A stretch of DNA of 64,000 nucleotides from Glomus cerebriforme (Eukaryota; Glomeromycota; Glomeromycetes; Glomerales; Glomeraceae): the NCBI GenBank assembly GCA_003550305.1, contig QKYT01000076.1, positions 232,976 to 296,975 on the forward strand, given 5' to 3'. The notes beneath the pieces were generated by a model, which was not told where the DNA came from, searched no databases, and saw only the letters and a program-made list of their open reading frames with translations. Within the stretch, counting starts at the first letter, position 1; every line of letters begins with the position of its first letter. Positions 7,704-55,592 of the stretch are shown here, one piece after another. The position numbers and the translations under genes were made by a program.

Positions 7704-8088
7704 ATTATATAGGGTGCCGTCCAAAATCCCGAAACTCAAAATCCCGACAGGCCAAAATCCCGACACTCGAAATCCCGACAGGTACAAAATCCCGAAACTC
7801 AAAATCCCGACAGGGTCAAAATCCCGACAGGTACGAAATCCCGAAATTGGCCCGCATTAAGCTTTAATACCACCCGGAATTAAGTTTCGGGATTTTTTTC
7901 AGAAGTTTAATAAATCACGAATTATAATTCCGGTCAGCATTAAAGCTTAATGCGGGCCAATTTTTCGGGATTTCGTACCTGTCGGGATTTTGACCCTGTC
8001 GGGATTTTGGATTTCGGGATTTTGAGTTTCGGGATTTTGGCCTGTCGGGATTTTGAGTTTCGGGATTTCGTACCATACCCATTATATA
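7704..8088. mobile_element. Foldback element of repeated ATCCCGA units with 8-bp target duplication
   Basis: The element proper is 7712-8080, flanked on both sides by ATTATATA (7704-7711 and 8081-8088). It starts GGGTGCCG and ends CCATACCC. Its left arm holds eight tandem AAATCCCGA units spaced by ACTC, CAGG or GTAC-type linkers. The right arm holds the same units inverted (TCGGGATTT). The centre has inverted GGCCCGCATTAAGCTT arms. No coding capacity. Direct 8-bp duplication and inverted termini mark a non-autonomous DNA transposon. An 8-bp duplication is usual for the hAT and P groups, but the assignment is inference. Confidence 0.82.
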
Positions 8089-9926: not shown

Positions 9927-11258
9927 CTAATAATTTTCTTTAATTTCTTTAATTTCTTGTAACTCCATTTCCTTCTTAGTGACTTCTCTCTGTTTAACTG
10001 CAAGATCATTCAGTTCTTTTGGAAGACCATATTTTATCAGATATTTTCGTAACTCATCTGCTTCCGCCTTTTTGGTCTTAACCTCTTCAGTATGTTTCTC
10101 TGATTTCTTAAATGAAACTTCAATAGACGCTGTTAATTCCAAAAATTTATCCACTTGATTTCTTACAACTTTTATTTGATCGCTAAACCTTTTCATTTTA
10201 ACAACTTTATTAAGAAATCCCACTTTTAGTTTATTTAATTCATCTTTCAATCCAATAAGTTCTGTAATTATTTTTTCATTTTCTTCTAATTTGATTATTT
10301 CTTTATTTTTATCATCCAAATTTTCTTTTAACTTTTCAATTTCCTCCATTAGCTCCTTAATTTTAGTTTCCTCATTAGCCTCTTTGGCTCTTTTAAGTTC
10401 TTCATCTTTAAGTTCAAGTTCCTTCTTTAATACATCTACTACTCCTACTAATTGTTTTTTATCATTATGTAGTTGATTCCAATTATCCAATAGATCCGAT
10501 CCGATAGTCGTAAGTTTGTCAATTCTGGAGTTCAAATTATCATTTTTTGAACTTAAATTAGCGATTTCAGATTTTAAAACAGCGATTTCGGAGATCAATT
10601 TAGCGTTTTCGGATTTCAAATTGACGTTTTCGGAGCTCGAATCATTAATCAATCTTTCCAACTCATCAACTTTTTCTAATCCGCTAGTTTCCCAAAAATT
10701 AATCCTAGCTGATCCAATATCTACTTCGTGGCCATCTGTTCTATAGGGACTTAATGCATCTTCAATTTTTTCTACTTCTGCTTCTGGTCTCATTTGATAG
10801 GAAGAAATAATAGTTCTTATACTTAATGGTAAATATTCATAACCACTATTAATGTCGGTATTACTTATTTCAAGAGTTTCTAATTTATTCATATTCCTTA
10901 ATGGTTTTAAGGAACCATGAAAACGATTATATATTCCTTGCTTTATTCTGTTTCCATCGAAGGTTCCTAAACGAAGTTCTTCAAGTTTTACAAATTTGTT
11001 CAACAAGCTAAGTTCCTCTTTAGCAAAATTATTGTTGGCGATATTCAAATAAGTAAGTTTTTCAGGAAAAGGAAGTGAAGAAAGAAAGGCGATGCTAGTT
11101 AGTCGGTTATAAGAGCAATCCAATGACTCCAAGCTTTCGAAATCTTTTAGGTTCAAAGGACCCTCAAGGTTCTGATTGTTGATTTCAAGTTCTTTTTCTT
11201 CTTTTCTTTGCTCTTTTGAATATAAGCTATCTAAATAATCCTGTGCTTGTATTGACAT
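9927..11258 (-). CDS. LRR / coiled-coil protein 1 (443 aa)
   Basis: Single-exon gene with start MSIQAQDYL. Residues ~25-150 hold four to five leucine-rich repeats (LESLDCSYNRL, LTYLNIANNNF, LEELRLGTF, LETLEISNT). A linker with YEYLPLS and INFWET follows. From ~residue 200 to the end the protein is a long charged coiled coil. It opens with heptads of the LKSENAKL type and continues with E/K-rich heptads. There is no signal peptide, membrane segment or enzymatic motif, so a scaffold or recognition role is the most that can be inferred. It is very similar to the proteins at 14122 and 19171 and lies opposite in direction to both. An upstream palindrome is shared with copy 3. Function unknown. Confidence 0.87.
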   Translation of the reverse strand: MSIQAQDYLDSLYSKEQRKEEKELEINNQNLEGPLNLKDFESLESLDCSYNRLTSIAFLSSLPFPEKLTYLNIANNNFAKEELSLLNKFVKLEELRLGTFDGNRIKQGIYNRFHGSLKPLRNMNKLETLEISNTDINSGYEYLPLSIRTIISSYQMRPEAEVEKIEDALSPYRTDGHEVDIGSARINFWETSGLEKVDELERLINDSSSENVNLKSENAKLISEIAVLKSEIANLSSKNDNLNSRIDKLTTIGSDLLDNWNQLHNDKKQLVGVVDVLKKELELKDEELKRAKEANEETKIKELMEEIEKLKENLDDKNKEIIKLEENEKIITELIGLKDELNKLKVGFLNKVVKMKRFSDQIKVVRNQVDKFLELTASIEVSFKKSEKHTEEVKTKKAEADELRKYLIKYGLPKELNDLAVKQREVTKKEMELQEIKEIKENY

Positions 11259-11906
11259 ATTGGACTAAAAAAAATTCACTTAAAAACTAAATAAATTCGT
11301 TTGAAACTGACTGGATAACTTGCAATAAAAAAAAAAATAAAAAGAATTTTATTGACTTGCAAACTGAAAAAAAAATTCGCGAATTTATTAAATAATTGGG
11401 ACGAAAATCTTTCCTATAAAAAATATGATAACAAAGTAAATTTGCGTTATGTGGTTTGCAAGACTACTCTTGCCTTGAAAATTAGAGCAAGGTAGCACTT
11501 CATTAGGTGTTACACTGAATAGGCTTTCAAGATTGCGTTGTTGATAAGGTGGGCGTTATACTTTTCATCGCCAAGTGCCGACAAGGCGACAACCAAATAA
11601 AGAGACCATGATGAAACAGAAAGGAAATTATACAATGAATGAAATTCAAAACTTAGTATCAAAAAGGAATATATTGAAAGTGAAGCTTGATAGACATTTA
11701 CATTGTTATGTAAGCATTACAACGTTTTATTACGAAATACAGTACGCCTATTTCTATCTGTGATAATCTCAAGTCCTAACAATGACACATTACTGCGCTA
11801 ATAAGCTCATTATCTACACCTTTTTTAGTTAAAACAGAATATTTTTTTTTAGCAAATATATTGTCTATCAAGGCCATGTGCAAGTAGATGCATACATTAT
11901 TAATAA
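11259..11906. other. 5' region of LRR/coiled-coil gene 1
   Basis: Promoter-side sequence (minus strand) with A-rich runs just upstream of the start and a variable spacer. The small plus-strand frame at 11575-11763 has no support. Parts align with the upstream regions of the two paralogues. Confidence 0.45.
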
Positions 11907-13459: not shown

Positions 13460-14121
13460 ATTTTGGGGTAAATTAATGATTTTCTATTAATTTTTTTTCA
13501 GCATGCATTAATTCTCATCTAACTAAAAAAAGTGCAAATGATGCAATTGTTATAAAGTGAAATGTCTAACGCTAATGTTCAGACTTTCATTCCTTTTTGA
13601 TATTCATTTTATCATTCTATATCCTAAATTTAATTTCATTCATTAAATGAAATTCCTTAATCTTTTTTGCTCTTTTTTTTTTTTTTTTTNTTTTTTTTTT
13701 TTTTTTTTTTTTTTTTGAACCTCTTCTTGGTTGTCGGCATTTTGCGAATTTTAATCTTTTTTTTTTTGTGACCTAATTGAAAATTATGACGCCTAATGAA
13801 TGACAATCAATCTATTCATTGTTATGAAAATGGAAAATATTTCGTTCCGACCTATTTTAAATTCGCGAATTCTTTCTATAATTCCTAATTATGGCATAAT
13901 TGAAAGTCTTTAAGTGTAGCGCATTATGATACCTTAAGATTATTATTTATGTTTTTCTTTATTAGGTTATAGAATTGGAAAAGATTCTCATCAATTATTA
14001 ATATTTAAATTTTGTGAAATTTCCTTTTTTCCGTTTACAAGTTATCCAATTTTTAAGAATTCTTTTTTATTTTGTAAAATATCCAGTTTCAATCGATTTT
14101 TTTTTTTAATCTTAATCCAAC
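13460..14121 (+). promoter_or_regulatory. 5' region of LRR/coiled-coil gene 2
   Basis: Collinear with 18640-19170 upstream of gene 3 (ggcattttgcgaattttaatc, gttatggaattgg-type blocks, then a T-rich leader). It contains a T-run of about 45 with one ambiguous base at 13690, and T-runs near 13755 and 14098. Conservation suggests that the promoter was duplicated with the gene. Confidence 0.5.
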
Positions 14122-15456
14122 ATGTTAATGCAAGCACAGGATTATTTGAATAGCTCTTATCCAGAAGGACAAAGGAGAGAAGAAAAAACACTTGAAATCA
14201 ACAATCAGAACCTTGAGGGTACCTTGGACCTAAAAGATTTCGAAAACTTGGAGTCATTGGATTGCTCTTACAACCAACTAACTAGCATCGCCTTTCTTTC
14301 TTCACTTCCTTTTCCTGAAAAACTTACTTATTTGAATATCGCCAACAATAATTTTGCTGAAGATGATCTTAGTTTTTTGAGCAAATTTGTAGAACTTGAG
14401 GAACTTCGTTTAGGAACCTTCGATGGAAATAGAATAAATCAAGGAATATATAATCGTTTTTGTGGTTCCTTAAAACCATTGAGGAACATGAATAGATTAG
14501 AAACTCTTGAAATAAGTAATACCGACATTGATAGTGGTTATGAATACTTACCATTAAGTATAAGAACTATTATTTCTTCCTCACAAATGAGACCAGAAGC
14601 AAAAGTAGAAAAAATTGAAGATGCATTAAGTCCTTATAGAACAGATGACAATTGGGAGGTAGATATTGGATCAGCTAGGATTAATTTTTGGGAAACTTGT
14701 GGATTAGAAAAAATTGATGAGTTGGAAAGATTAATCGATGATTCGAGTTCCGAAAACGTCAATTTGAAATCCGAAAACGCTAAATTGATCTCCGAAATCG
14801 CTGTTTTAAAATCTGAAATCGCTAATTTAAGCTCAAAAAATGATAATTTGAATTCCAGAATTGACAAACTTACAAGTGTTGGATCGGGTCTATTGGATGA
14901 TTGGAATCAACTATATAATGATAAACAACGATTAGCAGAAGTAGTAGATGAATTGAGGAAGCAACTTGAACTTAAAGAAGAAGAACTTAAAAAAGCTAAA
15001 GAGACTAATGAAGAAGTTAAAATTAAGAAGCTAATGGAAGAAATCGAAAAGTTAGAGGAGAATTTGGCTGACAAAAATAAAGAAATAATCAAATTAGAAG
15101 AAAACGAAAAAATAATTACAGAACTTATTGGGTTGAGAGATGAATTAAATAAACTAAAAGTGGGATTTTTTAATAAAGTTGTTAAAATGAAAAGGTTTAG
15201 CGATCAAATAAAAGTCGTAAGAAATCAAATGGATAAATTTTTGGAATTAACAGCATCGATTGAGATTTCATTTAAGAAATCGGAGAAACATACTGAGGAG
15301 ATTAAGACCAAAAAGGTGGAAACAAATGAGTTACGAAAATATCTGGTAAAATATGGTCTTCCAAAAGAATTGAATGAACTTGCAGTTAAACAAAGAGAAG
15401 TCACTAATAAGGAAATGAAGTTACAAGAAATTAAAGAAATTAAAGAAAATCTTTAG
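14122..15456 (+). CDS. LRR / coiled-coil protein 2 (444 aa)
   Basis: Single exon, start MLMQAQDYL. Same architecture as the gene at 9927: N-terminal LRRs (residues ~25-150), linker with SARINFWET, heptads of the SENAKLIS type at ~205-245, then an E/K-rich coiled coil to the end. It differs from copy 1 by scattered substitutions and a one-residue indel near DDNWEVDIG. The frame is fully open, which suggests that selection kept both copies or that duplication was recent. Cytoplasmic scaffold or recognition protein is the best guess. The exact role is unknown. Confidence 0.87.
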   Translation: MLMQAQDYLNSSYPEGQRREEKTLEINNQNLEGTLDLKDFENLESLDCSYNQLTSIAFLSSLPFPEKLTYLNIANNNFAEDDLSFLSKFVELEELRLGTFDGNRINQGIYNRFCGSLKPLRNMNRLETLEISNTDIDSGYEYLPLSIRTIISSSQMRPEAKVEKIEDALSPYRTDDNWEVDIGSARINFWETCGLEKIDELERLIDDSSSENVNLKSENAKLISEIAVLKSEIANLSSKNDNLNSRIDKLTSVGSGLLDDWNQLYNDKQRLAEVVDELRKQLELKEEELKKAKETNEEVKIKKLMEEIEKLEENLADKNKEIIKLEENEKIITELIGLRDELNKLKVGFFNKVVKMKRFSDQIKVVRNQMDKFLELTASIEISFKKSEKHTEEIKTKKVETNELRKYLVKYGLPKELNELAVKQREVTNKEMKLQEIKEIKENL

Positions 15457-19005: not shown

Positions 19006-19170
19006 AGGTTATGGAATTGGTAAAGATTTTCAAATCAAATTAATAATATTTAAATTTTGTGAGAATTCCTTTTTTCCCGTTTACATGTAATCCAATTTTT
19101 AAGTGAATTTTTTTTTATTTTGTAAATTATCCAGTTTCAACCGATTTTTTTCCTGTAATCTTAATCCAAT

Positions 19171-20562
19171 ATGTTAATGCAAGCACAGGATTATTTGAAT
19201 AGCTCTTATCCAGAAGGGCAAAGAAGAGAAGAAAAAACACTTGAAATCAACAACCAGAACCTTGAGGGTACTTTGGACCTAAAAGATTTCGAAAACTTGG
19301 AGTCGTTGGATTGCTCTTACAACCAGCTTTCTAGCACAAATTTCCTTTCAACATTACCATTCCCTGAGAAACTTATTTATTTGAATATTTCCAATAATAA
19401 CTTTACTGAAGATGATCTTAGTTTTTTGAGCAAATTTGTAGAACTTGAGGAACTTCGTTTAGGAACCTTCGATGAAAACAGAATAAATCAAGGAATATAT
19501 AATCGTTTTTGTGGTTCCTTAAAATCATTAAGGAACATGAATAGATTAGAAACTCTTGAAATAAGTAATACCGACATTGATAGTGGTTATGAATACTTGC
19601 CATTAAATGTAAGGACTATTATTTCTTCCTCACAAATGAGACCAGAAGCAAAAGTAGAAAAAATTGATGACGCATTAAGTCCTTATAGATCAGATGGCAA
19701 TTGGGAAGTAGATATTGGATCAGCTAGAATCAATTTTTGGGAAACTCACGGATTAGAAAAAATTGATGAGTTGGAAAGATTGATCGATGATTTGAACTCC
19801 AAAAACGTCAATTTGAAATCCGAAAATGCTAAATTGATCTCTGAAAATACCAACTTGGAATCCGAAAACGCTAAATTGAACTCCGAAAATACTGATTTAA
19901 AATCTGAAAATGTTAATTTGAATTTAAAGAATGATACTTTGAATTCCAGAATTGACAAACTTACAGGTATCGGAGTGGATCTATTGAATGATTGGAATGA
20001 ACTACATAATAATAAGCAACAATTAATAACAATAGTAGATGAACTAAAGAAGCAACTTGAACTTAAAGACGAAGAACTTAAAAAAGCACGAGAGGCTAAT
20101 GATGAAACTGCAATTATGAAACTAATGCAGGAAATCGAAAAATTAAAAGAAAGTTTGGCTGAAAAAGAAAAAGAAATAGCCAAATTAGAGGAAAATGAAA
20201 AAACAATTACAGAACTTGTTAAATCGAAAGAAGAACTAAAGAAACTAAAAGAGGGATTTCTCACAAAAATTGATAAAATGAAGAGGTTTAGTGATCAAAA
20301 AGAAGCTATAAGTAATCAAGTGGATAAATTTTTGGAATTAATAGAATCGAATGAAATTTCATTTAAGAAATCGGAGAAATATAAGAAGCATACTGATGAG
20401 GTTAAGTCCATTAAGACGGAAACAGATAATATACGAAAAGAGCTGGCAAAATTTGGTCTTGCAAAAGAACTGAATGATCTTTCAAATAAACAAAGAGATG
20501 TTACTAAGAAGGAATTGAAGTTACAAGAAATTAAAGACATTAAAAAGAGTCTTCAGGGATAG
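19171..20562 (+). CDS. LRR / coiled-coil protein 3 (463 aa)
   Basis: Single exon, start MLMQAQDYL. The LRR half (residues ~25-150) is almost the same as in copy 2, but a short part (SSTNFLSTLPFP) differs clearly from the IAFLSSLPFP of copies 1 and 2. The heptad region is longer, with about two extra seven-residue units of the SENxxLx type at ~205-260. The C-terminal coiled coil has diverged more and has an extra KYK. This explains the 19-residue excess over copy 2. It is direct, not inverted, relative to copy 2. No enzymatic motif. The role is unknown. Confidence 0.87.
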   Translation: MLMQAQDYLNSSYPEGQRREEKTLEINNQNLEGTLDLKDFENLESLDCSYNQLSSTNFLSTLPFPEKLIYLNISNNNFTEDDLSFLSKFVELEELRLGTFDENRINQGIYNRFCGSLKSLRNMNRLETLEISNTDIDSGYEYLPLNVRTIISSSQMRPEAKVEKIDDALSPYRSDGNWEVDIGSARINFWETHGLEKIDELERLIDDLNSKNVNLKSENAKLISENTNLESENAKLNSENTDLKSENVNLNLKNDTLNSRIDKLTGIGVDLLNDWNELHNNKQQLITIVDELKKQLELKDEELKKAREANDETAIMKLMQEIEKLKESLAEKEKEIAKLEENEKTITELVKSKEELKKLKEGFLTKIDKMKRFSDQKEAISNQVDKFLELIESNEISFKKSEKYKKHTDEVKSIKTETDNIRKELAKFGLAKELNDLSNKQRDVTKKELKLQEIKDIKKSLQG

Positions 20563-30220: not shown

Positions 30221-31879
30221 CTATGGGTCTATTTCCATTGCTGTTTCTGCTGTTTTTTCTGAATTATTTCTTTCGATTATTTGAATAGTTTCGACTTTAT
30301 CAATTTTAATATATTTTGAATTATTTGAATTATTAAAAATATTAAAATGTCTAATGTCAAAAATATTCTTTGAACTTAATCTAATTTTCTTTTTATTAGA
30401 ATCATATTTAATAAATTTTACCCTATCGTAATTAACCGGATTATCATGATCATGAATTATATGAGATAATTTTAAACGAGAAATTATAGGATTTGCAATT
30501 GAATTACTTTCCAAAGAAAATAAAAATGAATTCTTATTTGGTCCATATTTCAATGAATTATGTGCAAGTTTAATTGTATCTATTTCTTTATATTCTCCTA
30601 TAATTTTGTTTGAATTTGAACACTTATAAATTATTAAGAACTTATTATTATTATTATTATTGTTATTCTTGAGAAAATCATAAGGATTTTGAGAAGGTTT
30701 ATACATATAAGATTCAACATCTTCATAAAAATCATTAATTTTTCCTTTTCTTGATCTTATTGTTGCAAAAAATCCAAGTTTTGGTTCAAGTTTATTAATC
30801 CAACTAGAAATAATTGCACCTTGTAATTTGTTAATAATTTCAGATTCAATAGGTCTATGAGGGATAATCCTTTCAGGCAAAACACGTGTAAACGAAGGTT
30901 TCCAACCTTCAACATTAAGATGATGTTGAAGAATATCATCATAATGATTTGTTTCAAGTAATTTAGCGTAAGGTTTAACATATTGATAAAAATCAACAGG
31001 TTTTATAACATAAAATCTTATTAAAGGTATTAAATTTTTTAAAGTTTCTTTTAAAAAATCAAAATTTTCATCAGTCCAATCAGAAACAGAAGGAGGAAAA
31101 TCGGTAGGATATTTAGCTATACCCCATTTAATAACATTTTTCCAAATATCTACTTCTTGAATTCCAAGTTCATCTAATTTAAGTATTTCAATAAGTGAAG
31201 TTTCTTCAAAATCTGGAAAATCTTCTGCATAAAATAAATGTTCCGGTTCTTTACAAACTATATTATCCCAATAAGTTTTTAATTTTGTAAATGCTTCATC
31301 ATGTTGAAATACAATTTGATGAAAATAAACAAAATTTTTTTCAATCCAATCAGGATCAATTGTCAATAAATATTCTTGTATATCATCAATAATATTGTTG
31401 ATACAAAGTTCATCCAAAGCAATTAAAAGGTCCAAAATATCACTTGCAGTAAGCTCACTGAGATCCAAAATACCAACATAAAGATATCTTTATAATATAT
31501 ATATTATTATTTGTTTATTTATTTTATTAATAATTAACTGTTAAAATCTTTTAAATAAATTATGGGAATACTTTTCGTAAAAAAAAAAAAAAAAAAATAT
31601 AGTTAGTACTTACCGTAGAATTACTTTAAATATTTTTGGGCTAATATTTGGTTTATCAAGTATTATTTTTTTTCCATCGGTTTTCTTCCAACAATCAGAA
31701 AAGGCCTTTTTAAAATAAGGAGTTCTAACACTCAAAATACTTGAATGAATTTTAAAGGTTTCAATATCATCATCTTGACCAACGCTCATAACTACATCAT
31801 AGTTATCATCATCTTCAGTGAGAAGTTTGTTTAAATCGTTAGCTAAAAGTTCTCTATATGCTAGAACTTTTGAAGTCAT
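30221..31879 (-). CDS. BTB-BACK-TLDc protein (510 aa, two exons)
   Basis: Exon 1 is 31879-31614 and exon 2 is 31487-30221. The joined frame restores VILRYLYVGILDLSEL. BTB domain at ~20-120 (NYDVVMSVGQ, FKIHSSILSVRTPYFKKAF), then BACK helices (ILDLLIALDELCINN). The TLDc-type C-terminus has LIIYKCSNSNKIIGEY and NSFLFSLESN. An asparagine run from AAT repeats at about 30640-30665 sits inside the TLDc region, between FLKN and KFLIIYK. It is the same class as the gene at 22467 but diverged, and has the same single intron position after the ILR codons. Probable Cullin-3 adaptor; target unknown. Confidence 0.9.
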
Positions 31880-38747: not shown

Positions 38748-41700
38748 TCATATGATTTTATGAATTTCCTTTCTCTTTTTATGCACATATTTCAACAATG
38801 TTACTATGCTAGCCGGTGTCATTCCTTCAATACGTTTTGCTGCTCCCTAAAATAAAAACAATAAATCAGAAAATAATTTTTGATATATTTTATAAAATAT
38901 TATATTTACCAACGTGGAAGGCCTAATCAATTTTAATTTTGATCTAGTCTCAAACGAAAGGTTATGAATTCTACAAATAAGAATTTAATTTAATGTATAT
39001 CTCAATCGATATTAATTTTTAAATTGGTGGAATATTTCTTACAGATCATAATCCAAGTCTTCTGGTAATATCATTTCTTCATCTCTTCGAAATATTCGAA
39101 CTTCTGCCTTCTGCCTTTCCAGATATGATTTATAACTTGCTGTAAAATAATTATATCATTTAATAATAAAAAAGACAAATAGAATTGTGACTGTATATTT
39201 CGGTGTACCTTCAATATATAGTCGTCGAAATACAGAGGGCCCTATTTCTTTAAGTCCTGGAATGATTTTTGCAAGAAATTCCATGGTAACATTGCGAATT
39301 CCAATTATGTCTATGGCACTAAAATACATTTCCCACATGATTATTCCCATTTCTCTATTAAAAAGAACTAATGAGAAGCTTTATTCTAAATTTTCTACCT
39401 CCTCATTATACCGTCATACACAACATTTACTCCTAAAGTATTCCATTTTTGGGGTGACAAAGTAAACTCGTTGAGTAACTCTAAACCTTTATAGAAGTGT
39501 TTTTCGGTTTCTTGGTATATATTCCATCTATAACTAGATACGCATCCGATCTCATATCCTTAAATAAAGAACAATTAATCAATATAAAGAAAATTAAAAT
39601 ATGATGTTCATCATGTAAAGTACCTTTACGCGTTAACCGCATATCGGCATTATCAGCTCTGAGAGATAATCTATATTCCGAACGAGCAGTAAACATACGA
39701 TAAGGTTCCTCGACTCCTTTTGTTGTCAAATCATCTATTAAAACTCCAATATATGCATCTGCACGATCAAGTATAAATGGAGACTTGTTTTGAACGGAAA
39801 GACCAGCATTTATACCCGCAATAATTCCCTATCATAAAGGAAATTAATATAGCATTGTTTAAAGTAATTTATACATTATTTCTTGTAGTTTTACCTGTGC
39901 TGCGGCTTCTTCGTAGCCAGTGGTTCCATTAATTTGCCCGGCTAGATACAAACCCTTAATACGGTGAGTTTCTAATGTTGGGTTTAATTCTCGTGGATCC
40001 ACGTGATCATATTCCACCCCATATCCTATTTTAAAGGATAAATTTATTTAAAATAATCAGATATAATATTTTCAATCTTAATAATAATTACCTGGCCTTA
40101 TCATTACTACGTTTTCTAATCCTGGGATTGTACGAATAATATTATATTGCGTTGATTCTGGAAGAGTCATAGATATTCCATTTGGGTATACAACTTCTGT
40201 ATCAAGTCCTATAGTGTATATGATATATATACATTATTTTTATATCATAGATTGATGCAACATTTCAGATTAAGTACCCTCTGGTTCCAGCCAAACAATA
40301 TGACCCTGTTTATCTTTAAATCTTATCACTTTCGCTTCAATTGAGGGACAATATCTAATAATTATATAACATATCAATATCCTGTCTCATATATCGTGAA
40401 TTTAAAGCACGTTGAATTGACCTTGGTCCTTTTACGGTATCTCGTATATGCATTGTCTCAGATAAATTATCCAAAATGATTTTATGTGATTCCAAATTTG
40501 TTTTTGTTTGATGACATATTATTTGAGCTGCCTATGAATAAAGATCCTGTTACCTAAACTTATTGTGCTCAACAATATACCTTTCGTATACTTTGCTTAC
40601 TTCATGTGGAACAGATGTATGAAGGTAGGAAAAAGGTGTAGCTGGCACATCCCCATGTTGCTGAAGGAGATTTTTATAGTTAATTGTACGTCCATCCAAA
40701 CGTGGAGGTGTACCTAAATTAAAAGAGTCGTAAGGTAATTCAACATAAACCACGAATACTTTTCTTTACCTGTTTTAAGTCTTCCAAGTTTAAACCCTGC
40801 AAGCTCCAAGGTTTTGGAGATTCCCACAGATGGCGCCTCACCAAATCTTCCTGATGGATATATTGTTTTTCCTAACCAAGAAACCAACAATTTAATTTTC
40901 AAATAAATCGTTAAATTAAAATAAAATTTCGATATACCAATATGTATCTCGCCTTGTAGAAAAGTTCCCGTTGTCAACACAATTTTTGGCGCATAAATAA
41001 TTTCACCCGATTCTGTAGCAAATAAATTATACACATCATATATATATATATATTAAATTATTTATAAATTTTGCTATTTAATGAATGTTCATAACAATTT
41101 TTACCCAACTTTACTCCTTGCACTTCTCCATGTTTTCCAGATTCACCAAAAATCATTGGTTGATGTGCCATTAAAATATCATGTACATTGCCAGCCATTA
41201 CTGTTAAATTAGGATAATTAAATAGACATTCTTGCATATTTTTCTTATACAACTTTCTATCAATTTGCGCTCTAGGACCCTATGTAATGTTGATAATGTT
41301 GCTTTAAAAAAATTATTTGATTAAAGTTAATAGTTAATAAAACAATAATAATTCCATACATGAACAGCTGGTCCTTTTGAACGGTTCAACATATGAAATT
41401 GAATTCCGGATAAATCTATTAAGTTCATAGAATAAGAACGATATTGATGATATCAGTTGTATCGACTACAGGGATTATCTACCAGATATCTTTCCACATA
41501 ATCCATCCAAAGCATCTACCTCTCTAACTAATATTCCTTTACCGATTCCGCCAAATGACGGATTACATGACATTTCGCCTAGAAAGTGAAAAAAAAAATT
41601 AAAGAAATTCAAAAAAAATAGTTAAATAATTTAACTAACCGATAGTATCAAGTCTTTGAGTGAGTAATAAAGTTTTTGCTCCTGTTCTAGATGCTGCAGC

Positions 41701-50175: not shown

Positions 50176-50743
50176 ACTGCTTCAGACTTTGCAGACTTTG
50201 CTAAAGAACTTGGCAAGTGTAAATTAAAAGCGTTCTTGTCTTACAAAATCTAAAAAGACTTGAGTGAGATGCTACGCAAGTATGGAATCAATAGCAATGA
50301 TATAAAAAAAATTTCACTCTTCAAACTACTAAAGCCCGTAAAAATTGATAATGAAGAAGATGAGTTGGAGTAGTATATAATGAAAATAAAATGCAGAATG
50401 GGAATTATAGGTTTAGTAACAGGCAATAATAAGGCTGTGCATTGTGAGTATATTTCTCTAATATTATATGTATCTATCTATATCACCAAAAGAATTACTA
50501 AGAAAGGAATTATCCAGTTCAAAGTTGTAGATAAAGAGGCATTAGACTAGGTTAATTATATAATCAAAAAAGTTATAGACATCGTCAATGAGAAGTTGAT
50601 AGCTATAACTAAGGAAAAACAAAAGGATTTGGTGATGAGATTCATGCAGAATATAAACCAACTTGAAAGCTTTCACTATACAAACATAAGAAAGAGAAAA
50701 GCATCTGTGACATTTGATGATGAGTTCATCAGAAAGTTTTGGA

Positions 50744-53700
50744 GGTGTTGATATACACCAAAAAATGCGTTGAACAACACTATTAGTTGTTTAACATGTT
50801 GTAAAACACCTGTATATTGGAGTTTATCAATACATGCAGTAAACATACGCGTTTTTCTATACCAACAATTGTTAAACACATTATACACTGTTGCACAACA
50901 CCCATATATCAACGCCACTTAATAATTTTTCAATATAATAAATAGTTATAATAAATAGTTATTATATAATTATAATTTTATTTATTTTAGATTTACTTAT
51001 CTAATAAATATATTAAAAAATAATTTTTTTATAAATTAAAATTAAAATTTTATTAAAATTTATTAAAAATCTTTAAAATCGGGTCTGGATTATTATATTG
51101 GCCAATATTAAATATAATTCTGGCCAAATTTAAAAATAATTTAGGCTAAAAGCGTCTGATTAGTTTCAGAAATTTTTTTTTAAAAATATCTTACTACTGA
51201 TACGTTCTCTTTTTGTCACTATGAATGGGCGGAGGAAGCAGCAATGGCTCTTCCCCTGTAGNTACTAATGACCTCTACCCATCCATAGAGGAGGNGCTTT
51301 TCGCAAGATTAATTAAAAAAAAATTCAANTTGAAAAAGAAAAAAAATGAAAAAAGGCTCATTATATACTTTTTTGTATCATGTGTATCATATGATACGAG
51401 CTGCAGTTTATTTTAAAAAAAATAACTGCATGNCACACTTATCAATTAAGCTGCAGTNNCAGTTTATTTTAGTTAATCATTTATTTAAACCTTAAATCGG
51501 CAACTTTTAATCGCCATTTGAACTTTGAACTTTGTTCTAGAAATTGAGAAACGGTTAGTTTTTTTGTGAAACTTACCATTTTTTTTTTAATTTTTTTTAA
51601 AGAAACGTTTCTAACGTTTCTTCTTTTTTCTTTTGTAGGTCTCTCAGTTTTCAGTTCGATACTGAAAAGTGGGAACTGATAAGTTTCTTCATGAAACTTA
51701 CCATTTTTTTTGTTTTTTTTTAGAAACGCTTACTAACATTTCTTTTTTTTTTCTTGTAGGTTCTCTGAGCTCTTCGGTCTGGAATGGGAAGGGAACGATA
51801 AGTTTCTTCACGAAACTTATCATTTTTTTTCATTTTTTTTTAAAGAAACATTTTTAACGTTTCTTCTTTTCTTTTCTTGTAGGTTCTCTGAGCTCTTCAG
51901 TCCAGAATGGGAAGGAAAAACGGTAAGTTTCTTCGTGAAATTTACCATTTTTTTTTGTTTTTTTTTAGAAACGCTTATTAACATTTCTTTTTTTTGTAGG
52001 TTCTCTGAGTTCTTTGGTCTGGAATGGGAAGGGAAAACGGTAAGTTTCTTCGCGAAACTTATCATTTTTTTTTGTTTTTTTAGAAACATTTTTAACATTT
52101 CTTCTTTTCTTTTCTTGTAGGTTCTCTGTGCTTTCAGTTCGATACTGGAATCAGAAATGGCAAGTTTCTCAAGTTTCTTTAGGAAACTTACCGTATTTTT
52201 TTTTGGGTTTCTTTTATTAGAAACGTTTCTAACGTTTTCTTTCTTTTTCTTTTGTAGGTTCTCTTGGCTTTCAAATTAGTACGTGAAATTGGAGAACAGT
52301 AAGTTTTTTTGTGAAACTTGACATTTTTTTTCTTTTTTTTTAGAAACGCTTTCTAACGGTTCTTTTTCTTTTCTTGTAGATTTGCTTCAGTTCGGGCATT
52401 TGGATTTAGGAAATGGTAAGTTTCGTAATGAAACTTACCGTTCTTTTTTTTTATTTTTTTTTAAATAGAAATGTTTCTAACGTTTCTTCTTTTTTCTTCT
52501 TGTAGGTTCTTGGATTTCATTTCAGATATGGACGTTTCTTCGCAAAATTTCCATCTGATGCATTTACTTAAAGAATCGTTAGTAGAAACGGTACTAACGT
52601 TTCTTTTTTTTCATTTTTTTTGTAGGATCAGGATTTTTTTCAATTTCAGCTTGGAAATTTGGTAAGTTTCGAAGTTGAAACTTCAAAACTTTCTTTTTGG
52701 AATGTAAGTTTCATAATAAAACTTCATTTTTTTTGTTTTTTTTAAGAAATGTTCTAACTAAATGTTTCTTCTTTTTTGTAGGTTTGCTTCTGAACTTGGG
52801 AAACTGAAACATAAGTTTTGTAACGTTCATTTCATTACAAAACTTTATTTTTTTTGGTTTATTTTTTAGGAAAGGTTCTAACTGAACGTTTCTTCATTTT
52901 TTTTGTAGATTCAGCTCTGGAAACAGAAACAGAAATGTAAGTTTCGTAACGTTCATTTCATTACAAACTTCATTTTTCATTTTTTTTTCTTTGTATAGAA
53001 ACGTTCTAACTGAATGTTTCTTCTTTTCTTTTTGTAGATTCAGCTCTGGAAACGGAAACAGAAACATAAGTTTCATAATGTTTGTTTTGTTACAAACTTC
53101 ATTTTTGTTTTTTTTTCTTTGTATAGAAACGTTCTAACTGAACGTTTCTTCTTTTTTGTAGATTCGTCTCTAGAAACGGAAATGGAAACATAAGTTTCGT
53201 AATGTTCATTTCATTATAAACTTTGTTTTTCATTATTTTTTCTTTGTATTGAAATGTTCTAACTGAACGTTTCTTCTTTTTTTGTAGGTTTGCTTCTGGA
53301 CTTGGGATACTGAAATGTAAGTTTTATAACGTTCGTTTCGTTACAAACTTCATTTTTCATTTTTTTCTTTGTATAGAAATGTTCTAACTGAACATTTCTT
53401 CTTTTTTATAGATTTGTCTCTGGAAACGGAAACAGAAATATAAGTTTTGTAACGTTTGTTTCATTACAAACTTTGTTTTTTATTTTTTTTTCTTTGTATA
53501 GAAACGTTCTAACCGAACGTTTTTTCTTTTTTTGTAAGTTTGCTCCTGAACTTGGAATACTGAAACGTAAGTTTTATAACAAATGTTTTGTTATGAAACT
53601 TCATTTTTTTGTTTTTTTTCTTTGTTATAAACGTTCTAACCGAATGATTTTCTTTTTTTTTGTAAATTCAGTTTGTTTCTTGAAATTTGGGTTTTTGGGA

Positions 53701-54166
53701 ATTGGAAACGTAAGTTTCGTAACTTAACTGCGAAACTTAATTATTTTTTTGTAGGTTTCAGGTTTAGATATCAGAATTGAATAATTAGTTAGTATAGCAT
53801 AGTTAGTATATCTAGGAAGAATTTGTAATTTAATACATTTTTAATAAACAAAAATAGTTTAAACATAATAAAATCAATTAACAATGCTTTTATTTATTAA
53901 ATGTAATTAATATATGCTAAAATTTGTATTGTTATACGCATTTTTTAACATTTTTATATGCATTTTTCAACTAATAATATGCATTTTTTAACTAACCTAG
54001 TATTGTTATATGCATTTTTAAATTGCTATTGTTTTACTATATGTTGTTATACACCTAAAAAAGTGTTGCACAATACGTTTTTAATCATATTAGTTGACAA
54101 AGGGTTCATTGTGTAACACTTTTTTGGTGTTGAACAACACATGGCGTATGTTTACACTTTATACGC
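50744..54166. mobile_element. 3.4-kb inserted segment bordered by GTGTTG/CAACAC repeats
   Basis: This segment separates the two parts of the SAM-domain pseudogene. Its left border (50744-50916) is a small foldback with ends GGTGTTGATATA and TATATCAACGCC. Its right border (about 54030-54166) holds several inverted GTGTTG and CAACAC motifs and ends near TATACGCC. Both borders share motifs such as GTTGAACAACAC. It may be one large non-autonomous element, or two MITEs around unrelated DNA. No target duplication was found. The interior holds the tandem array described separately. Confidence 0.5.
51535..53760 (+). repeat. Tandem array of ~17 intron-like units, ~122-bp period
   Basis: T-rich tracts ending in TAG recur at 51638, 51759, 51882, 51999, 52120, 52257, 52379, 52505, 52625, 52781, 52908, 53037, 53161, 53287, 53411 and 53754 (last base given). 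Two more end TAA near 53536 and 53655. After each comes a 28-42 nt block and then, in about nine units, GTAAGTTT (others ATAAGTTT). Before most T tracts lies a GAAACGTT..AACGTTTC hairpin with CTAAC in or near the loop, like a branch point. Two subfamilies are seen. Units before ~52460 have blocks starting GTTCTCTGAGCTCTTC. Units after ~52700 have blocks starting GTTTGCTTCTG or ATTCAGCTCTGG. Block lengths are not multiples of three, so a protein is unlikely. Confidence 0.85.
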
Positions 54167-54169
54167 CTG

Positions 54170-54440
54170 TTCAAAACTTCCTGATGTTTGACTACCTCTA
54201 TGGAATTGTGATCATAAGTAAAGCTTGTGTGATCTTTTTATCAATCGTTCATATATACAGTACTAACTCATGTCTTTCTTTATTTAGCTTCAGACTGGTA
54301 CTTCCTCATGTACATACCAGAAAGGATTTATTGCTTAAAAGATAACTATCATATAGTACTTACTGAGAAAATAATGAAAGATGATGCGAAACTTCACTGT
54401 AATATTAAAAAGGTTATGGAGATAATCATTGGCTTTTGAA
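54170..54440 (+). pseudogene. SAM-domain protein pseudogene, 3' part
   Basis: Continues the family's conserved C-terminal region: FDYLYGIVI, then after an intron-like gap DWYFLMYIPERI, YHIVLTEKIMKDDAK and KKVMEIIIG. Stops follow at once. Its order and direction agree with the 5' part ending near 50743, so the two are one gene split by the insertion. Confidence 0.55.
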
Positions 54441-54604
54441 GAATAGGGTTAAAGTTAATGATTTTCTGGATAGTAAGAAAGCAAGAACAAAAAAATTTAT
54501 TAAGGAATGATTGGGTAATCTGGCATCATTAGCATAGAAACTTCGTCATGTATTCTGAGTAAAGTCCTGATCTTTGTATTTATTTTTATCTCTATATTAA
54601 TAAA

Positions 54605-55264
54605 GTGAGTCTTTACATTTGTATAAAAATATTATTATCAGGCATGCAACCTGAGATTGATTTATTAGAACAAGAAAGAGTTGAGCTTTTGTTTAAAAAT
54701 GCTAAGCTTGAAGCTGAGTATACCAAGCTTAAGGTTGAGAATGACGAGTTACTAAAGCCACTCATAGAAGAATATGCTGAAAATGAGGCAGATATAAAAC
54801 TTAAAACTAGTTTGCAATATCCAATCCTTTTTGAGCGTATTGAGGTTGCAATTCATAAGCTTGAGACTAGGAATGCAAAAATAAGACATATACAAAGAAA
54901 TTGGAATCTAAGAAAAATCAAAAATTCCAGACAAGGTGTATCCAGATAGCTAAGGAAATTCTTAATGAGGAGCCAATAATCGAATATCGTCATCCTTTCT
55001 TGAATGGATTAGAGCTTGATGCCTTCTTCCAAAAATACTGAATTGCGCTGGAGCTCAGCATCGGTTTCAAAATACCAGCTGGTATAAAGATGTTAAAAAA
55101 CTCGAAGACATTGTTAATCGTGATCGGCAAAAGAGGTGCATTTGTCAAGATAATGGAATTTTCCTTCTTGAAGTATGGTATGATGAAAAACCAGAAATCG
55201 CTATTCCTAAAAGGATACAGAAAATTAAGGAGTTCATTGATCAAGTTTTGATCTCCTATAATTA
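54605..55264 (+). pseudogene. Coiled-coil / Vsr-like nuclease pseudogene
   Basis: The likely start is at 54644 (MQPEIDLL). An N-terminal coiled coil (NAKLEAEYTKLKVENDEL) runs to about 54949. It is followed in other frames by a nuclease-like block: IEYRHPFLNGLELDAFFQKY, a TGA, IALE, then in a third frame AQHRFQNTSWYKDVKKLEDI, RCICQDNGIFLLEVWYD and IPKRIQKIKEF (to 55264). The spaced acidic residues in LELD and IALE, with the core missing at the frameshift, resemble the Vsr/DUF559 PD-(D/E)XK fold found in related proteins of this fungal group. At least one stop and two frame changes make it non-functional as it stands. Confidence 0.65.
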
Positions 55265-55592
55265 AATTTACGTTTAAATTGTGGGCTTCACAAATCCCGT
55301 TTGTTATGTTGTTATGCTATATATTATATTTACTGTATCACCTGATATCAGTATGGTGTCGACCGAAATTTCACTGCTTGGAGTTATATTATGTTTTCAG
55401 ATAAAGACTTAATGCATAAAATCTTTGTTTTCCCGCATTTCGGACGTTATAAGGCGATAACCCAATGTCATGGTGTCATGTGATACTGTAATTGTAACGC
55501 AAAATTTAATCAGTTACACTAAAGTGTTATTCAAGATAATCTTTTTTTTTTATTTACCTCGTCATAAACTTATCTTTCCCAAAAACATCAAA

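Follow-up and report, generated by a model that had tools for sequence, protein, structure and literature searches.

A window of 64,000 nucleotides from contig QKYT01000076.1 of Glomus cerebriforme (assembly GCA_003550305.1, positions 232,976 to 296,975) contains a 3,460-bp DNA transposon whose cargo is a tandem array of 18 intron-like units separated by mini-exons. The source organism, which we take to be synonymous with Rhizophagus cerebriforme, is an arbuscular mycorrhizal (plant-symbiotic) fungus, and the window protein at 30221-31486 on the minus strand shows 100% identity to G. cerebriforme C1645_803453. The element is a non-autonomous transposon with terminal inverted repeats (TIRs), dispersed in dozens of places in the genome. 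Judged from its sequence, the array is probably a transposon-borne, intron-dense, non-coding transcription unit, and splicing of its units appears reasonably likely. The first-pass annotation had described a satellite that repeats a whole intron plus micro-exon; the array proves instead to be carried by a TIR transposon, and the order of its units is largely fixed.

The limits of the window copy were set by the homology limits of other copies, and the target-site duplication by comparison of the flanks:

50725..50726, left 2-bp target-site duplication (TT)
50727..54186, plus strand, complete copy of the non-autonomous TIR transposon, 3,460 bp
50727..50741, plus strand, 5′ TIR, one mismatch to CATCAGGAAGTTTTG
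54172..54186, minus strand, 3′ TIR
54187..54188, right 2-bp target-site duplication (TT)

A search of the 112.5-Mb genome with the array region, in which the best 40 of 312 candidates were scored, gave at least 65 matches. Twenty genomic copies with their flanks were picked for a matching array, making 21 copies with that of the window. Homology to the window begins at 50724-50728 in 11 of the 20 fetched copies and stops at 54186-54187 in 16 of them; copies that do not share these ends are truncated or rearranged, or extend into N. The element ends in 15-bp inverted repeats (CATCAGGAAGTTTTG / CAAAACTTCCTGATG). Both ends were recognised in 10 of the 21 copies, giving an element length of 3.0-4.9 kb, and in the copies showing both ends the array is enclosed by them. 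The flanking 2 bp are equal in nine of these ten copies, against a chance of about 0.09 per copy, and in none of the ten are the flanks equal over 3 bp. The inverted repeats and the 2-bp target duplication therefore identify the element as a non-autonomous DNA transposon. Genome-wide, the 33-bp 5′ end was found at 73 places (up to 3 mismatches), the 31-bp 3′ end at 90 (up to 2) and a segment of the last exon at 49 (up to 3), the reversed control giving 0 in each case, and the bare 15-bp TIR (up to 1 mismatch) at 263 places versus 20 for its reversed control. Three other copies (L026, L033 and L038) have ~0.5-1.3 kb more DNA than the window copy in the interval from the 5′ end region to the array. 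The window copy contains, at 51232-51310, a stretch with a short inverted repeat (CCTCTACCCATCCATAGAGGAGG); judged by eye this stretch is like the flank of the L030 element, and it is perhaps another small repeat inserted here. A single 15-mer with one mismatch to the TIR also occurs at 40842-40856 on the minus strand, possibly by chance or as a remnant.

The window copy has no transposase inside it. CACTA-type TIRs start with CACT(A/G); the TIR of this element starts with CATCAGG, and it is therefore not filed as CACTA. The genome yielded 27 Transposase_21 and 34 Plavaka matches. Of these 61, two are situated inward of a listed 5′ end (73 in all) at a distance below 4 kb, each of them on the opposite strand: a Plavaka match 2.2 kb from the end on contig C635, and a Transposase_21 match 3.2 kb from the end on contig C837. 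The number expected is 0.16 (P 0.011), for a 4-kb cut-off that was set after the matches had been seen, and the last-exon segment (up to 3 mismatches) is absent from both contigs. We read the two matches as hints of a source transposase of the Plavaka/CMC group. In the excerpts available of the two reports, Plavaka is placed in CACTA/CMC/EnSpm and is prevalent in R. irregularis strains (PMC11075540), and CMC-EnSpm is among the elements expressed in R. irregularis spores (PMC8647823).

The array runs head-to-tail on the plus strand, and its parts in the window copy are as follows:

51554..53754, plus strand, tandem array of 18 intron-like units
51554..51638, plus strand, U01, intron-like unit, donor GTTAGT in the window copy
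51679..51759, plus strand, U02, intron-like unit, donor decayed to ATAAGT
51798-51882, plus strand, U03, intron-like unit
51923-51999, plus strand, U04, intron-like unit, also an intron of gene model C1645_873327
52040-52120, plus strand, U05, intron-like unit, also an intron of C1645_873327
52159..52257, plus strand, U06, intron-like unit with extended donor hairpin, donor GCAAGT in the window copy
52299..52379, plus strand, U07, intron-like unit
52416..52505, plus strand, U08, intron-like unit
52526..52625, plus strand, U09, divergent intron-like unit, class donor GTATGG, AT in the window copy
52662..52781, plus strand, U10, intron-like unit, donor hairpin present twice (donors 52662, 52704)
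52811..52908, plus strand, U11, intron-like unit, donor decayed
52937-53037, plus strand, U12, intron-like unit
53066-53161, plus strand, U13, intron-like unit
53190-53287, plus strand, U14, intron-like unit
53317-53411, plus strand, U15, intron-like unit
53440-53537, plus strand, U16, intron-like unit
53567..53665, plus strand, U17, intron-like unit
53710..53754, plus strand, U18, short terminal intron-like unit of 45 nt, without TAAC
53843..53848, plus strand, AATAAA in the last exon, candidate poly(A) signal, present in 16 of the 17 right ends that were aligned

A unit consists in general of a GTAAGTTT donor, a hairpin and a T tract, then in most cases a second hairpin containing TAAC, and finally TTTGTAG. 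Tandem Repeats Finder (TRF) gave overlapping rows with periods of 117, 238, 125 and 250 bp from 51568 to 53671, and a profile derived from the units of the window itself recovered 16 of the 18, missing those that end at 52625 and 53754; it under-counts U09 and U18. The palindrome GTAAGTTTCN5GAAACTTAC (up to 3 mismatches) occurs nine times in the window, always on the plus strand and within the array; 100 shuffles gave a mean of 0.05 and a maximum of 1. The tandem intron-like array seen in the first pass is, on these grounds, real, and the six donors that it named (51923, 52040, 52416, 52937, 53317 and 53710) all read GTAAGTTT. Introns in the window are mostly 77-101 nt long, with outliers of 45 and 120 nt, and have a GC content of 24%, compared with 41% for the array exons. 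The mini-exons are 28-44 nt, apart from the exon at 52506, which is 20 nt under the preferred donor. At donor positions 51679, 51798, 52811, 53066, 53190 and 53440 the window has ATAAGTTT; since the class consensuses carry GTAAGTTT, decay from the latter is the best reading. Two acceptors (53537 and 53665) have decayed to TAA. The AATAAA is conserved no better than its neighbouring sequence. The two donor hairpins of U10 (52662-52726) are consecutive, an arrangement that insertion or duplication of a donor might have produced, and both are present in the 21-row consensus.

By the profile count, 19 of the 20 copies have 13-20 units per copy in a single orientation, and one (L030:1021-6468, turned orientation) has two adjoining arrays of 17 and 14 units that face in opposite directions. 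When every unit was assigned to its nearest window unit the order was largely constant, namely U01, U02, several U03-05, U06, U07, U08, (U09), U10, U11, several U12-16 and U17, with assignments to U03-05 and U12-16 often ambiguous. The core U06-U07-U08-(U09)-U10 is retained in 19 of 20 copies, L037 being the exception; other departures from the order include a missing U01, a repeated U06 in L034 and U17-like units within L028. The number of middle units probably varies by unequal exchange. Exons are most often 37-41 or 48 nt long in A-type units and 28-30 or 35 nt in B-type units; the donor fragments behind these lengths were taken with a regular expression, and a few boundaries are artefacts of it.

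The 21 copies supplied 331 introns (155 A-type and 176 B-type), from which decay-aware consensuses were built for 12 unit classes in all, 11 together and U18 separately, that of U09 on 6 rows. A donor GT is found in all 12 consensuses and GTAAGT in 11, the exception being U09 with GTATGG; the acceptor TTGTAG (AG) is found in all 12, and TAAC in 11, with none in U18. Among single units the donor is GTAAGT in 192 of 331 and ATAAGT in 46, and the acceptor TAG in 266 and TAA in 52. The branch A lies 24-28 nt from the AG in the nine classes measured, and 57-72 nt from the donor in measured classes, or 96 nt from the outer donor in U10. Host introns in the window have, by eye, similar signals and size (GTAAATTC..ATTAG, 78 nt, and GTAAGTTA..TTCAG, 68 nt), as do GTAAGTTTG..ATAG of 96 nt and GTATGTTC..ACTAAC..TATAG of 71 nt, which belong to a gene with Pfam DUF2009 matches. 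Identity between classes is 76% for introns (shuffled 52%) and 57% for exons (shuffled 42%), over 27 pairs of 8 classes with U01, U09, U10, U18 and the identical U11/U17 exon pair excluded, so in the consensus sequences the intron part is conserved better than the exons. The intron-like layout proposed in the first pass is borne out by this steady spacing of donor, TAAC and acceptor between more divergent exons, and by the introns of a public gene model, which agree with the array at several sites.

The donor lies in a first hairpin that forms a stem in all 12 folded hairpins (11 classes, U10 twice), with a tip that differs. Pairwise comparison of the stems gave 547 positions that were the same, 28 two-sided changes that were still paired and 16 one-sided changes consistent with G-U pairs, the numbers being small and the classes related. 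Class introns fold better than their shuffles (z −2.6 to −7.8), and the mean z of single units, of which 313 of 331 were usable, is −2.7 for A-type (n=144) and −2.8 for B-type (n=169). A second hairpin at TAAC is present in the best fold of 10 of the 12 classes, U06 and U18 excepted, and in the four B classes (U10, U11, U12-16 and U17) the UAAC lies in its loop. There was no Rfam match at E≤1 across 50600-54300, and no exact match to the B hairpin in viral contigs.

Single copies differ from their consensus mainly by C to T and G to A changes, with the strongest decay at CpG. For eight of 11 classes we applied a strict test of this decay, in which columns were dropped if fewer than 90% of rows fitted the consensus base or its decay product. 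The donor +1 G was lost in 12 of 62 cases at CpG (matched G/C: 681 of 1737; p=0.0013) and in 9 of 98 at non-CpG (matched sites: 711 of 4030; p=0.03), while the donor +5 G was lost in 9 of 160 (p=1.5e-5). Donor G sites thus decay about half as often as matched sites, with p values that are too small because the rows are related copies, and with rates that sequence context may also affect. A looser test over all classes gave bigger differences, the acceptor included, but mixed sub-classes, and the strict test is preferred. It lends weak support to constraint on the donor after insertion, and none to constraint on the acceptor. The suggestion in the first pass that donor and acceptor would be kept better than the rest of the unit therefore holds for the G sites of the donor and fails for the acceptor G. 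An asymmetry in CpG decay was also tried as a test of selection and was dropped, several non-donor sites being as skewed as the donor.

Part of the array is publicly annotated as a protein-coding gene. A spliced translation of the window exons (stops as X), searched against 69 candidates limited by length, matched four annotated proteins at E 4e-17 to 3e-4, all of them named G. cerebriforme and so from a single species (C1645_873327, C1645_826852, C1645_826426 and C1645_732212). The best match, C1645_873327 (323 aa), maps letter for letter on the window in the one solution returned (alternatives were not enumerated), with its ATG at 51907 and 14 introns, 13 of which start inside the array. Seven of its introns lie at array donors and acceptors (51923-51999, 52040-52120, 52299-52379, 52416-52505, 52662-52781, 53317-53411 and 52937-53161), the last of these skipping one exon. 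At decayed donors the model switches to other sites, and because this keeps the frame open it looks like gene-finder output. It leaves the element from donor 53567 to downstream sequence at 54642, fusing with a downstream gene, and is probably a mis-fused prediction; as annotated it spans 51907-55265 and joins array exons to sequence past the transposon. The spliced core of the window copy has stops in all three frames (5, 6 and 3), exon lengths of 28, 29, 40 and 41 nt are not multiples of three, and the number of units varies among copies; it is therefore unlikely, on the sequence, that a protein is made from the array, and we consider a coding gene with repeated exons a very improbable explanation. 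A protein search with the unspliced array frame found none at E≤0.001 among 443 candidates.

In the mechanism that we favour, the array would ride as cargo of the non-autonomous element, possibly mobilised by a transposase of the Plavaka/CACTA group, and would constitute a non-coding transcription unit in which ~13-20 U2-type introns alternate with mini-exons. RNA polymerase II would transcribe it and the spliceosome would take out the introns, a process perhaps tuned by the hairpins, in which the donor is held and the branch region is often left exposed. The element may benefit in that its transcript, being densely spliced, resembles an mRNA and is exported or evades RNA silencing. Silencing by stalled spliceosomes was considered as a reason for dense introns and set aside. 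More tentatively, and with rather more doubt than belief, we suggest that this is a new type of cargo, consisting of ordered, self-similar introns with donor and branch hairpins, selected for splicing in the propagating lineage and giving a transcript that is mostly intronic.

Several observations weigh against splicing as the function of the array. The donor sits paired in a stable hairpin, potentially hindering its use. The −4 G, which is not needed for splicing, is conserved in the classes along with the hairpins, and conservation therefore covers more than the splice signals. In the strict decay test the acceptor −1 G was lost in 27 of 160 cases (p=0.92), no slower than other G, and the −4 G in 24 of 156 (p=0.52). 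The CpG asymmetry at the donor of B units (TG:CA 55:26) is equalled or exceeded at several non-donor sites (105:8, 32:81, 58:21 and 54:26). Model C1645_873327 takes cryptic GT sites at decayed donors, holding the frame open. Junctions of spliced retrocopies were not found with two exon-exon patterns (up to 3 mismatches), one of which occurred at 2 places, each at 3 mismatches, and the other at 0. As an alternative, the array could be a set of palindromes working as DNA or as unspliced RNA, for example as internal sites for a transposase or host protein or as a structured RNA, its intron look being inherited from one ancestral unit and unused. The 28 two-sided changes that keep hairpin 1 paired despite its differing tip, the stable folding of the class introns, the equal conservation of non-splice bases such as the −4 G and the unprotected acceptor G all fit such an array. 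However, the B classes retain the donor GT where the facing arm pairs incompletely, TAAC and the T-rich GTAG end are kept at steady spacing outside the palindromes, and the introns are less divergent than the exons. We give this alternative a real though minority chance, and continue to prefer a spliced, non-coding transcription unit.

Other sources of intron-like repeats fit less well. The first-pass annotation had raised an introner-like element multiplied in tandem, and a family whose units enter genes singly as new introns, and were multiplied here by chance, would explain why the units resemble complete introns; most introners are described, in the part of the survey available, as consistent with DNA transposition (PMC9860276). 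The mobile unit seen here is the whole element, however, since the inverted repeats and target duplication bound the element and not the units, and many of the 99 exact genomic places of the B-hairpin motif are clustered ~125 bp apart or lie at known elements, which leaves this origin highly improbable. The first pass had likewise suggested an amplified intron/exon of a host gene, for which no support was found, host genes not having been searched systematically. An array of spliced-leader-like RNA genes for trans-splicing would resemble our units in layout, with a mini-exon followed by a donor in a stem, a U-rich stretch and another stem. Spliced-leader exons are generally identical in every unit; the exons here are the less conserved part (57% versus 76%), every unit has an acceptor too and Rfam gave no match at E≤1, so that we find this explanation scarcely credible. 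SP7 effector genes were considered as a source of the micro-exons and rejected; the excerpt available describes one conserved intron before the first repeat (PMC11333574).

If the cargo is of the new type suggested above, an intron cassette may evade silencing by small RNAs, keep the splicing machinery of the host occupied or provide ready splice sites that link the element to neighbouring genes. If its units are spliced, they would form a natural test bed of hundreds of related introns with graded decay of donor, acceptor and hairpin in one genome, which could show how donor structure affects splicing and whether splicing shields transposon RNA from silencing. For annotators there is a caution, because at least one public gene model is built on the array and three more match its spliced sequence.

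Elsewhere in the window, three closely similar long open frames lie in inverted and direct orientation at 9927-11264 (minus strand), 14116-15456 (plus strand) and 19165-20562 (plus strand), each with a leucine-rich start, a coiled-coil-like remainder and a 21-bp tandem repeat. At 7721-7844 and 7963-8068 a 15/31-bp unit is tandemly repeated in two arrays that face each other, one reading CAAAATCCCGACAGG and the other the reverse complement.

In the open-licence literature searched, as far as its accessible portions go, we met no description of a transposon with a whole ordered row of introns and mini-exons. The element differs from CACTA-type elements in the start of its TIR (not CACT(A/G)), and its window copy has no transposase. 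It is like the Plavaka and CMC/CACTA elements of R. irregularis in having TIRs, a short target duplication and many copies, and the available parts of the accounts of these elements mention no intron array (PMC11075540; PMC8647823). Introners, as excerpted, are also mobile DNA with complete spliceosomal intron signals, but they are single introns in genes (PMC9860276), whereas here many introns and mini-exons are carried in one transposon. The symmetrical stwintrons of Hypoxylaceae resemble our units as proliferated fungal introns with internal inverted repeats; in the part of that report available they have terminal repeats of 45-55 nt, are nested introns within genes and show no target duplication (PMC8469720), whereas the array units have short hairpins and are carried by a transposon with TIRs. 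Intron gain by tandem genomic duplication likewise produces repeated exon/intron units, in a host gene according to the excerpt available (PMC4974935), whereas the array units recur across mobile copies. The element is ordinary as non-autonomous transposon DNA, and unusual in its cargo of ordered intron-like units with hairpins. Transposons with internal tandem repeats are common and can seed satellites, and the present element is like them in having an internal tandem array with a variable number of units; it differs in that the units are built like introns and that their distinct types follow one another in a conserved order.

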